Assembly: GCF_009905535.1 (NCBI RefSeq)
Contig: NZ_JAAALA010000007.1
Coordinates: forward strand, 1 to 64,000
Reading direction: 5' to 3'
DNA from: Caulobacter sp. SLTY
GTDB taxonomy: Bacteria; Pseudomonadota; Alphaproteobacteria; Caulobacterales; Caulobacteraceae
DNA: 64,000 bases
Under the pieces are notes generated by a model. It was not told the DNA's origin. It did no database searches and saw nothing but the letters and a program-made list of their open reading frames with translations. Of this stretch, positions 45,251 through 53,397 are shown piece after piece. Within the stretch, counting starts at the first letter, position 1; each line of letters begins with the position of its first letter. The position numbers and the translations under genes were made by a program.

Positions 45251-45378
45251 CCGTCATCCCGGACGACCCGAAAGGGGCGATCCGGGACCCAGGGGCGGTG
45301 CGCACGGCGGCTGAAGCAGCGAGACCACGCCCCCTGGGTCCCGGCTCTCCGGGCTTCGCCCTGCGGCCGGGAAGACGG
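45251..45378. repeat. Foldback repeat copy A
   Basis: 128 bp. Outer arms CCGTCATCCCGG (45251-45262) and CCGGGAAGACGG (45367-45378; one mismatch). Inner arms CCGGGACCCAGGGGC (45282-45296) and its exact complement at 45330-45344. The right arm matches the outer arms of copies B and C; the left arm is diverged between the two paired blocks. It lies 9 bp past the mccA stop, where it could act as an mRNA end hairpin. Confidence 0.85.
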
Positions 45379-48413: not shown

Positions 48414-49253
48414 CTACTCAGCCCAGCCCGGCTTGCGCTTCTCGAGGAAGGCCAGGACGCCTTCCCTGCCCTCTTCGCTGACCCTTCGGGCGGCGATGCG
48501 CTTGGCGGTCTCTTCCATGACACCGCGGTCGATCTCGGCGCCCTCGATGTCGTTGACCAGGTCCTTGGCGTCGGCCACGGCGCCGGGAGCGCAGGCCTTG
48601 ATGGCGGTGCTCAGATCAGCTCGGACGGCGTCGAAGGCGGCGGCATCGGCAACCACCTGGCCGACCAGGCCGAAGCCCTGGGCCTCGGCTGCGGTGAAGA
48701 CCCGGCCGGTCGCGAACAGCGCCTTGGCGTTGCGGGCGCCGATGGCGCGGATGACATAGGGGCTGATCGTCGCTGGGGTGAGGCCGAGCTTCACCTCCGA
48801 GAAGGCGAAGGTGGAGCGTTCGGTGGCCACGGCCATGTCGCAGGCCGCCGCCAGGCCGGCGCCGCCGCCGAAGGCCGGGCCGTCGACCAAGGCGACAGTC
48901 AGCTGCGGCAGGTCGTGCAGGGCCTTGAGCATGGAGGCCAGGCCCATGGCGTCCTCGCGGTTGTCCGACTCCGACCACTCGACGGCGGCCTTCATCCATT
49001 CCAGGTCCGCCCCGGCGCTGAAGGCGTCGCCAGCGCCGGTCAGGAAGACCAGCCGCACGCCGTCGGCGTCCCGCAGGGTCTCGAAGGTCTGATGCAGGGC
49101 GGCGATCACCTCGGCGTTGAAGGCGTTCTTCTTGGCGGCGCGGTTGAGGGTGACGGTGGCGATCCCGTCGGGGGTCGCCTCGAGCAGGACGAGGTCGGAC
49201 AGGGCGTCGGTGTCGGGGACTTCGACGAGGGGGTCGGCGATGGGGTTGGTCAT
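48414..49253 (-). CDS. liuC: Enoyl-CoA hydratase, probable methylglutaconyl-CoA hydratase
   Basis: 279-residue crotonase. Oxyanion-hole segments KKNAFNAEVIAAL and GDAFSAGADLEWMKAA, then DGPAFGGGAGLAAACDMAVA, with a catalytic acidic residue in SEVKLGLTPATISPYV. Between mccA and mccB it would hydrate 3-methylglutaconyl-CoA to HMG-CoA. The assignment to liuC rests on context; the fold itself only says crotonase. ATG 49253 is preferred: an extension to 49304 adds a non-conserved Pro/Arg segment. Confidence 0.85.
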   Translation of the reverse strand: MTNPIADPLVEVPDTDALSDLVLLEATPDGIATVTLNRAAKKNAFNAEVIAALHQTFETLRDADGVRLVFLTGAGDAFSAGADLEWMKAAVEWSESDNREDAMGLASMLKALHDLPQLTVALVDGPAFGGGAGLAAACDMAVATERSTFAFSEVKLGLTPATISPYVIRAIGARNAKALFATGRVFTAAEAQGFGLVGQVVADAAAFDAVRADLSTAIKACAPGAVADAKDLVNDIEGAEIDRGVMEETAKRIAARRVSEEGREGVLAFLEKRKPGWAE

Positions 49254-49333
49254 GGGGGGATTGGTACGGCGGATTGGGAGTGGCGTGAAGCGTTCGTTGA
49301 TCATTGTTCTTTGTTTGTTCCTGCTCTACTCTT

Positions 49334-49471
49334 CCGTCATCCCGGCCGGAGGGCGAAGCCCGGAGAGCCGGGACCCAGGGCGGCGCGCGTGGGCGGCTGC
49401 GACAGCGAGTTCTCGCCCTCCTGGGTCCCGGCTCTCCGCCCGGCTGCGCCGAGCTACGGCCGGGATGACGG
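49334..49471. repeat. Foldback repeat copy B (left end of the GIY-YIG unit)
   Basis: 138 bp. Perfect outer arms CCGTCATCCCGGCCG (49334-49348) and CGGCCGGGATGACGG (49457-49471). Perfect 19-bp inner arms at 49361-49379 and 49420-49438. Its loop (about 49380-49419) resembles that of copy A in the same orientation. It ends 9 bp before the nuclease ATG and contributes the first G of that gene's GGAGG. It is in inverted orientation relative to copy C: its left arm matches the complement of C's right arm over 47 nt with one mismatch. Confidence 0.92.
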
Positions 49472-49480
49472 GAGGTGGGG

Positions 49481-49774
49481 ATGGACAAAGTTTTCCACGT
49501 CTACATGCTGGCGAGCGGACGCAATGGGACTTTGTACGTCGGGGTCACTGGGCATCTGGCGCATCGGGTCTGGATGCACAAGGAAGGCGGCGGCAGCGCC
49601 TTCACCAGTAAGTACGGGATCAAGCGGCTGGTCTGGTATCAGGAGTTTCAATCGGCCCTGGAGGCCATAGCGTTCGAGAAGCGGCTCAAGCGGTGGCGGC
49701 GGGCGTGGAAGCTGGGACTGATCGAGAGGGAGAACCCGCAGTGGCTCGATCTGTATGAGACGCTCAATCAGTAG
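49481..49774 (+). CDS. Small GIY-YIG endonuclease-family protein
   Basis: 97 residues, a single GIY-YIG domain (COG2827-like). Tyr8 in FHVYML and YVG at 19-21 supply the two tyrosine motifs. Arg29 and His33 lie in the catalytic helix (LAHRVWMHKEG), and Glu66 in AIAFEKRLKRW is the metal ligand. All expected catalytic positions look intact. A basic C-terminal helix (KRLKRWRRAWK) could contact DNA. The start is ATG 49481 with GGAGG 5 nt upstream; a GTG two codons earlier is possible. It is flanked by inverted foldback repeats within the minus-strand liu genes, so it reads against its neighbours. Confidence 0.92.
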   Translation: MDKVFHVYMLASGRNGTLYVGVTGHLAHRVWMHKEGGGSAFTSKYGIKRLVWYQEFQSALEAIAFEKRLKRWRRAWKLGLIERENPQWLDLYETLNQ

Positions 49775-49807
49775 GCCGACCGGCCTACTTAAGTCCCCGC
49801 AAATCTT

Positions 49808-49957
49808 CCGTCATCCCGGCCGCAGCTCGGCGAAGCCGGGCGGAGAGCCGGGACCCAGGGGGTGCGTGATCTCGATATCGAACGCGGCTTTGTGGCCGGT
49901 GCGCGGCAACCCCTGGGTCCCGGCTCTCCGGGCTTCGCCCTACGGCCGGGATGACGG
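49808..49957. repeat. Foldback repeat copy C (right end of the GIY-YIG unit)
   Basis: 150 bp. Perfect 15-bp outer arms at 49808-49822 and 49943-49957. Perfect 21-bp inner arms at 49841-49861 and 49910-49930. It starts 33 bp after the nuclease stop and is followed by CTTTTTG, so it can also work as a Rho-independent terminator for that gene. It ends 18 bp before the mccB stop on the other strand. Confidence 0.92.
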
Positions 49958-49975
49958 GCTTTTTGTAGTACAGGG

Positions 49976-51583
<1,608 letters not shown>

Positions 51584-51660
51584 TACGGAGGGATAGCCCG
51601 TGTCTTTCCGGCCAACAATGGCCGTCGCGGCGGCCGCTGACTCAGGATAGCGTCCGCCCA

Positions 51661-53397
51661 GTGGTCGGGACCAACACCTATCGGCAGGACACCGCGCTGA
51701 CCCGGCTCTTCGAGCGGGAGCTGGAGGCCGGGCGCGCCAGCTGGTTCTCACTCCCGGGCGGGATGGTGCTGTTTGAGGCCGGGGAGCGGTCGGGGCAGAT
51801 CTTCCTGGTCCATGCGGGCAAGCTGGGCGCGTTTCGCAAGGAAGAGGGGCTGGACCGGCAGTTCGTTGGGGTGATCCGTCCGGGCGAACCGGCCGGCGAG
51901 ATGGCCATGATCGGCGGAACCGCGCACACCGCCAGGGTGGTGGCGCTGCGGGATTCGGAAATCCTGTCGCTGTCGGCCGACCAGTTCTTCGACGCCGCGG
52001 ACAGCGATCCGGACGTGATGATCGAGATCGCCCGGCTGATGCTCAACCGGGCGCGCTCGGCCAGTACGCGAGCCTCGACCGGGGACCCGGCGGTGTTCGG
52101 CTTCACCGCCGCCGAAGGGACAGGGAAGATCCGGCCACTGGTCGGGCGGATCGCCCGGTCGATGGCCGAGATGGGCCATGCGGTGACGGTGGTCGGTTCC
52201 GAGGCGGCCAGCGCGCCGACCGAGTGGTTCAGCAATGTGGAAGCCGACCACGAGTTCGTCCTCTATGTGGGCGAGGCGGGGGAGAACGCCTGGAAACAGG
52301 TGGTCGGGCGGCAGGTGGACCGGCTGTTCCGCGTCGGGCGCGGCGACCGCCCGCCGCCCGCCGCCACGCTGGAGCCCATGGCGGAGGCCCTGGAGGCCCA
52401 CAAGCTGGTCGACCTGATCCTGTTGCAGCCCGCCGGACGGAACCATCCGCAAGGGTCGGAGGCCTGGCTGGAGGCCACGGGCGCGGCGCGTCTGTTCCAT
52501 ATGCGGACCGATTCCCAGCCGTGCGCGGCGCGGCTGGCGCGGGTCCTGACCGGGCGTTCGGTGGGGCTGGTGCTGTCGGGCGGCGGGGCGCGGGCCTATG
52601 CGCATATCGGCGCGCTGAGGGCGCTGAGAGAGACGAACACGCCGGTCGATTTCGTCGGCGGCTGCTCGATGGGGGCGATCATCGCCGCCAGCCTGGCCAT
52701 GGGCTGGGACGGCGAGGAGCTGGAGCGGCGCATCCGCAAGGCGTTCGTCGAGACCAGCCCCCTGGACGACATCGCCTTTCCGCTTCTCGCCCTGACCGGC
52801 GGTCGGAAGGTGGATGAGCGGCTGGAGGAGCATTTCGGCGAGGTCGCGATCCCGGACCTGTGGCTGCCCTTCTATTGCCTGTCCTCGAACCTGACCTCGG
52901 GCGGCTACCAGTTGCACCAGCGGGGGCGGCTGCGTGACGCCTTGCGGGCGACCATCGCCCTGCCCGGCGTGATGCCGCCAAGCACGCTGGCCGGCGATGT
53001 GCTGGTCGATGGGGCGGTGATGAAGAACTTCCCGGCCGACATCATGCGCAGCCTGCAGCGGGGGCCGGTGGTGGGGGTGGATGTGACGCGGGGGCGCAGC
53101 ATCAGTTCGGACGACATCTCCATCCCTTCGTTGTGGAAATGGGTGCTGTCGGGGGAGTGGCGGAAGGGACCGCCGATCGTGGCGCTGCTGATGCGGGCGG
53201 CGACCCTGTCGACCAACCGCGAGGTGATCGCCGCGCGGGATGCGACGGACCTGCTGGTGCTGCCCGACGTCGATCACATCGACATCCGGGACTGGAAGGC
53301 GTTCGAGGTGGCGGCGGCGGCCGGATATGCGGCCACGATGGCTCAGCTGGAAAAGCTGGAACGGCCGGTGACGGAGTTGAGGCGGGTGAAGGCATGA
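51661..53397 (+). CDS. Patatin-like phospholipase with N-terminal cyclic-nucleotide-binding domain
   Basis: 578 residues. A cNMP-type beta-roll (about 25-140: [29 protein letters not shown]...[12 protein letters not shown]) precedes a linker and a patatin domain (about 300-500). The patatin domain has oxyanion loop [20 protein letters not shown], nucleophile GGCSMGAI (GxSxG) and the Asp of VDGAVMKNF. This is the NTE-like lysophospholipase layout (RssA/NTE family). GTG start. The next gene overlaps by 4 nt. Whether it binds cAMP or cGMP cannot be told. Confidence 0.92.

Follow-up and report, generated by a model that had tools for sequence, protein, structure and literature searches.

A small GIY-YIG nuclease gene between CGTC-tagged REP dimers in Caulobacter sp. 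SLTY, a candidate REPtron-like element

Why does a small nuclease gene of Caulobacter sp. SLTY stand between two mirror-image foldback repeats, and might its product act on them? The window analysed here is the whole stretch of 64,000 nucleotides at positions 1 to 64,000 of contig NZ_JAAALA010000007.1, and the unit in question, at 49334..49957, consists of a gene for a GIY-YIG nuclease framed by foldbacks B and C. A survey of related genes demonstrates that the pairing of nuclease and repeat is systematic, recurrent and clade-specific. We consider it probable, at about two chances in three, that the unit is REPtron-like, the enzyme associated with its repetitive extragenic palindromes (REPs) being a small GIY-YIG nuclease and not an HUH transposase.

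The nuclease and its repeat arms

The unit is composed of three features:

49334..49471: foldback B, a head-to-head dimer of CGTC-tagged REP arms (42-nt arm at 49336-49377, + strand; 48-nt arm at 49422-49469, - strand)
49475..49774, + strand: small GIY-YIG nuclease gene, starting at GTG 49475 or ATG 49481
49808..49957: foldback C, a mirror copy of B (48-nt arm at 49810-49857, + strand; 42-nt arm at 49914-49955, - strand)

The 99-codon open reading frame (ORF) matches the Pfam model PF01541 (GIY-YIG, E 1.4e-12), and model, fold and catalytic residues all place its product in the GIY-YIG superfamily. Conserved residues, in ATG numbering, are Y8, Y19, G21, R29, H33, E66, N85, P86, W88 and D90. 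The catalytic Y, Y, R and E are kept in at least 94% of 216 proteins, a lower bound like the other conservation values, since some proteins of the weak set were read on the wrong strand; the inverted-repeat scores used below are strand-symmetric and therefore independent of reading strand. The family is large, given that at least 7,999 proteins matched in a profile search limited to scoring 8,000 candidates. PF01541 is the sole Pfam match of the window protein and its fold is GIY-YIG, which does not fit an HUH Y1 tyrosine transposase. The protein has no NCBIfam family match and lacks the GxGA[KR]xT motif of the UPF0213/YhbQ clade. An earlier note on this DNA had proposed a homing-type nuclease fold; that description needs adjusting, since among solved structures UPF0213 and SLX1, a structure-specific nuclease, come closest in fold and I-TevI ranks lower. 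UPF0213/YhbQ proteins (1zg2, 1ywl) resemble the window nuclease in fold and length but have motifs of the GxGAKxT-GRG type and no NPxW. SLX1, by contrast, is eukaryotic, longer and works with SLX4, and I-TevI-type homing endonucleases differ from the window nuclease, which is free-standing among intergenic repeats.

Each foldback is made of two arms placed head-to-head, an arm having the form GTCATCC-stem-loop-stem-GGAYCCA. The window arms (CGTCATCC...GGACCCA) carry the CGTC-type tag, hairpin and CCA tail of CGTC REPs; the GTAG tag of the REPtrons of REP-associated tyrosine transposases (RAYTs) is absent. At the first stem pair, GGATCCA arms have A-T and GGACCCA arms A-C. The outer arms of the foldbacks are CCGTCATCCCGGCCG/CGGCCGGGATGACGG; the inner arms match at 92% in B (49361-49385/49414-49438) and at 96% in C (49841-49865/49906-49930), each around a perfect core of 19-20 nt. 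We recovered the arms, cores and mirror layout of the nested foldbacks that the earlier note had placed in opposite orientation around the ORF, and likewise the inverted match of their outermost 47 nt (98% complementary, with 93% across 58 inner nt). Its terminal inverted repeats hold good as mirror-image ends; they are not simple transposon termini, being two REP dimers without target-site duplication. Folding energies as single-stranded DNA are -67.3 kcal/mol for B and -71.9 kcal/mol for C (z -9.6 and -10.9 against shuffles).

The pattern GTCATCCN{10,38}GGAYCCA identifies 119 arms genome-wide (58 and 61 by strand), and the reversed pattern has no match in the genome. These arms, with 39 dimer readings from the sampled loci (38 distinct dimers, locus L318 being counted as two), are dispersed and mostly head-to-head, as is typical of CGTC REPs. 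The outer flanks of the dimer readings are C-rich and almost free of G at -11 to -5, mirrored on the opposite side. Among 14 arms of the source genome 97.0% of cells are paired, and 19 cells are double-changed where shuffles give 5.9; in 19 arms of another genome (G038) the values are 91.9%, 25 and 10.4. Because the stems of single arms are thus kept by compensatory change, the arm hairpin is most likely the unit maintained by selection. A coexisting family has GGCCGG..GAGAGCC arms, frequently paired with GGACG..GATCC or GGAAG..CTATCC arms, and the source genome also holds TCGGGCTTGTCCCGA, TAGGCCTTGTGCCTA, TCGCACTTGTTGCGA and TTCGGCC types. A relative of the TCGCACTTGTTGCGA arm, TCGGACTTGTTCCGA, occurs as 17-41 arms in four genomes of the genus (G536, G550, G561 and G563) among the matches listed.

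Pairing of GIY-YIG genes with repeats

Besides uvrC, the source genome contains three small GIY-YIG genes, four in all. Each of the small genes has a foldback within about 110 nt, and the three foldbacks are of different families, those at the two paralogues of the window gene being of the TCGCACTTGTTGCGA and TAGGCCTTGTGCCTA types; uvrC lacks a comparable foldback. A separate observation concerns the TCGCACTTGTTGCGA-type locus L065 (G000:C39:10438-10725), where the GIY-YIG gene apparently splits a mutagenesis cassette, lying between genes that we read from their translations as imuB-like and dnaE2-like; the imuB-like neighbour hits the NCBIfam DNA polymerase IV family at E 2.6e-6, below the cut-off.

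A relative is present in 96 of 120 genomes of the order, among the matches listed. From the order we sampled 100 regions of 66 genomes (at most two per genome, three for the source genome), scored the 350-nt flanks of each gene for gapped inverted repeats, with 20 or more counted as strong, and used the 910 other ORFs of the same regions as controls. Strong scores were obtained for 82 of the 100 GIY-YIG genes and 109 of the 910 controls (Fisher p 5e-49), and scores of at least 25 for 70 and 57, respectively. The GIY-YIG gene was the top scorer of its region in 65 of 100 cases (10.9 expected), and among short control genes 21 of 214 reached 20. The earlier note would have counted against its own proposal a repeat scattered genome-wide and not enriched beside GIY-YIG genes; it is indeed genome-wide, but small GIY-YIG genes are strongly enriched beside it.

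The association extends beyond the order. At class and phylum level 54 best matches were returned, and of the 49 with full flanks 40 were strong, against 7 of 98 control windows. Likewise strong were 28 of 33 loci in named genomes (set A3 holds 21 of the 35 named loci) and all eight plasmid-collection records chosen from 32 matches. The word GTCATYCC lies within 350 nt of 94 of 216 GIY-YIG genes and 81 of 910 controls; a scrambled word does so for 1 and 7. Among class loci typed by eye, one of 18 YhbQ/UPF0213-type genes scored at least 20, as did nine of ten genes of other GIY-YIG types. A second, more distant GIY-YIG clade, although chosen as a negative control, had foldbacks in 15 of 17 cases and may be a sister system. 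Strong foldbacks accompany this KGWSRAKKEAL type at L219-L223, L225-L231 and L234-L238; L228, with a short flank, was included in the cognate-test set (20 loci) and excluded from the residue-conservation set (19). Farther afield, a GIY-YIG gene of Neisseria gonorrhoeae (L324) lies amid dRS3-type repeats and one of the cyanobacterium Planktothrix (L330) amid GTCATTCTGAGTGAAACGAAGAATCTC-type repeats.

Repeat families are matched to the protein. We compared the flanks of all pairs among the 100 genes, with 52 syntenic pairs excluded. Between genomes, a repeat is common to 54 of 3489 pairs below 55% protein identity, 100 of 1278 at 55-65%, 41 of 81 at 65-75%, 11 of 13 at 75-90% and both pairs above 90%; at 65% or more overall, 54 of 96 non-syntenic pairs share it. 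Within one genome, the repeat is common to five of seven pairs at 65% identity or more and to 1 of 28 at 45-65%. If the repeat were a property of the genome, these latter pairs would share it often; as read from the flanking sequences, the comparison shows that the repeat family goes with the protein. The gene is flanked by its own dispersed, family-matched repeats, as in REPtrons. The median number of pattern arms is 9 in genomes with a match at E<1e-20 (n=80), 3.5 in those with weaker matches (n=16) and 2 where there is no match (n=24).

Layouts vary. Among 214 genes with enough flank, complementary arms lie on both sides in 122, a foldback within one flank only in 54, and neither layout is found in 38. 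Some genes sit inside a single dimer, with one arm to either side; this suggests that short dimers could derive from arm-gene-arm units and lack the gene, by analogy with miniature inverted-repeat transposable elements and their transposons.

Insertion at the junction and possible roles of the enzyme

The surroundings of the unit, in which the flanks bear the names mccB and liuC from the sequence-only first reading, are as follows:

49254..49975: whole liuC-mccB junction containing the unit, 722 nt
48414..49253, - strand: liuC-like enoyl-CoA hydratase gene, flank
49976..51751, - strand: mccB-like carboxyltransferase gene, flank, start unrefined
45251..45378: further dispersed copy of the B/C repeat family, away from the nuclease gene

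Both neighbours are on the - strand and the nuclease ORF is on the + strand, in agreement with the earlier description of a unit reading against mccB and liuC; the flank families are carboxyltransferase and enoyl-CoA hydratase, both under NCBIfam cut-offs. We took mccB loci from 30 of the 59 genomes with a match, giving 29 loci of relatives, of which 28 were complete and measured. The junction spans at most 25 nt in 18 of the 28, the empty site that the earlier note had proposed to look for, and 46 to 742 nt in the other ten, some of the longer junctions being occupied, by eye, by other foldbacks. The nuclease is present at one of the 30 loci, that of the source genome; the 29 relatives' loci (one incomplete) do not include any with the nuclease; its presence here without repeats in relatives is what the earlier note would have counted against its proposal. 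Since the junction measures 722 nt here and at most 25 nt in most relatives, the unit is, on this sequence comparison, an insertion into an operon-like junction.

Comparable cases occur elsewhere. In Azospirillum lipoferum a GIY-YIG gene with foldbacks lies between sufB and sufC. An alignment of one site across eight Sinorhizobium meliloti records shows strains with a dimer and strains without, and two records retain an 11-nt remnant, TCACAGGAACG. Sinorhizobium strains C101 and K101 (L344, L345 and L346) contain arrays in which REP dimers flank a GIY-YIG gene with an internal deletion; in K101 this unit is found at two loci and is absent from strain 1021.

We hypothesize that the enzyme recognises its cognate REP arm (CGTC tag, hairpin and CCA tail) extruded as a hairpin or cruciform, and that it could nick the extruded arm in the manner of SLX1. 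Nicking would open the way for the paired arms to be copied into new intergenic sites or to move there, and the nuclease gene would travel or persist between arms of its own family.

Alternatively, a selfish GIY-YIG gene may be homing, cutting pre-existing REP dimers and copying itself by repair into the spacer between the arms while the repeats spread by other means. The arms on both sides of 122 of the 214 genes and the fold shared with I-TevI would suit this, and cognate specificity fits a homing site equally well. However, we consider it unlikely: genes are few, with 0-12 matches in a sampled genome against up to 206 arms, among the matches listed; genomes that have the gene hold more arms, an outcome not expected from homing alone; and the 54 genes with a foldback within one flank only have no arm pair across them.

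Another possibility is upkeep, in which a structure-specific nuclease trims or resolves REP hairpins and cruciforms, has no role in their spread, and is kept nearby for regulation or by selection. The Sinorhizobium remnant could be a trimmed hairpin, and SLX1, among the closest solved folds, processes branched DNA. Yet a guard enzyme need neither adjoin its repeats nor match them family by family, and the patchy distribution of the nuclease genes, their multiplicity within a genome and the occurrence of copies that contain stops or deletions, among the matches listed, are typical of mobile genes, which makes this explanation improbable. We give very little credence to the proposal that RAYTs move the CGTC REPs with the GIY-YIG gene as passenger: abstracts name RAYTs as the likely movers of the related GTAG REPs, but the excerpted text of PMC3733652 states that CGTC repeats did not flank tyrosine transposase genes of CGTC species. 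That small dispensable genes merely gather in repeat-rich intergenic stretches, as the 109 high-scoring controls might suggest, is hardly credible and already contradicted by the control survey (short genes included), the YhbQ-type counts for genes of the same fold, and the match of repeat family to protein.

Several points weigh against a REPtron-like element. The association is observed, while chemistry and mobility we infer, the recognition, nicking and mobilisation of arms being proposed activities. Eighteen of the 100 GIY-YIG genes score below 20, nine of these still having a tagged hairpin arm, and such an arm, found at 57 of the 100 genes, also occurs in 40 of 376 control windows. Direct repeats of at least 5 nt were found at the edges of none of the 39 dimer readings, and a 4-nt repeat at one (0.7 expected). 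The remnant in some Sinorhizobium strains makes gain and loss indistinguishable there. If gene and flanking arms move or are inherited as a block, the cognate test reports co-inheritance and not enzyme specificity. We found no cognate GIY-YIG gene for the TCGGGCTTGTCCCGA and TTCGGCC families of the source genome, perhaps owing to a lost partner or an assembly gap. The difference in arm number between strong-match and no-match genomes (p 2.6e-4) is uncorrected for phylogeny, and 7 of the 80 strong-match genomes have no arm of the pattern. Among the matches listed, G017 has 100 arms and as its sole match a second-clade GIY-YIG gene scoring 17.5, G084 has 52 arms without a strong gene match, and G042 and G071 have 15 arms each without any.

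Known repeats and a possible partner enzyme

CGTC-tagged REPs were defined by Di Nocera, De Gregorio and Rocco in 2013 (PMC3733652). In the excerpts of that paper used here, they include dRS3 of Neisseria and RPE-4/RPE-6 of Rickettsia, are concluded to apparently lack a dedicated transposase, and are noted inside excinuclease ABC and DnaE2 genes. The repeats described here share with them the CGTC tag, stem-loop, CCA tail, head-to-head dimers and alphaproteobacterial centre, and differ in that a GIY-YIG clade adjoins them. The letters GIY are absent from the text of PMC3733652, in which the sole excinuclease passage concerns REPs inside repair genes. Annotations sometimes label GIY-YIG genes like these excinuclease ABC subunit C, and it is our speculation that some of the excinuclease genes with REPs in that excerpt are such genes. 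CIR repeats of Caulobacter (Chen and Shapiro 2003) contain GANTC and are about 110 nt long, as cited second-hand in an excerpt of PMC2229807.

The closest functional parallel is the RAYT/TnpA_REP system with its GTAG REPs. In that system (PMC8266576; see also PMC3116915) the gene likewise adjoins tagged hairpin repeats of its own, which are dispersed and form inverted pairs, and enzyme and repeat families are matched; the element described here has a GIY-YIG enzyme and not HUH Y1, and a CGTC and not a GTAG tag. It resembles a REPtron, yet is not a RAYT REPtron, because the window protein is not an HUH enzyme and the window arms do not carry the GTAG tag. The comparison with RAYTs and REPs made in the earlier note holds for the association, and mobilisation by the nuclease is a proposal. 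No link between GIY-YIG genes and REPs, dRS3 included, was found in the open-access papers searched, a scope that leaves aside most subscription papers and all bioRxiv preprints; within that scope PMC3733652 alone, from 2013 onward, brings CGTC, REPs, RAYT and palindromic repeats together, and the open-access papers that pair GIY-YIG with RAYT, REPIN or CGTC looked unrelated in the parts available. The repeats are known, and the enzyme partner appears to be new.

More broadly, and with less confidence than for the unit itself, we lean towards the view that CGTC REPs across bacteria, dRS3-type repeats of Neisseria and the repeats of Planktothrix among them, are mobilised by enzymes of a large, unnamed GIY-YIG clade dedicated to them. 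Such systems would be a second class of REPtron, outside the HUH type, in which hairpin DNA is spread by a nicking nuclease with structure specificity and each enzyme has its own repeat family. If true, a nuclease fold joins the short list of REP-tied enzymes, and an origin is offered for repeats listed in Neisseria, rhizobia, Caulobacter and Rickettsia (the last from the excerpted PMC3733652 alone). Which enzyme moves CGTC REPs, if any, was left open in 2013, to judge from the same excerpts, and the matched enzyme-repeat pairs now give a testable candidate. The recurrence of the pairing in many other bacteria suggests that a widespread repeat family has, in the small GIY-YIG nuclease, the partner enzyme it had seemed to lack.
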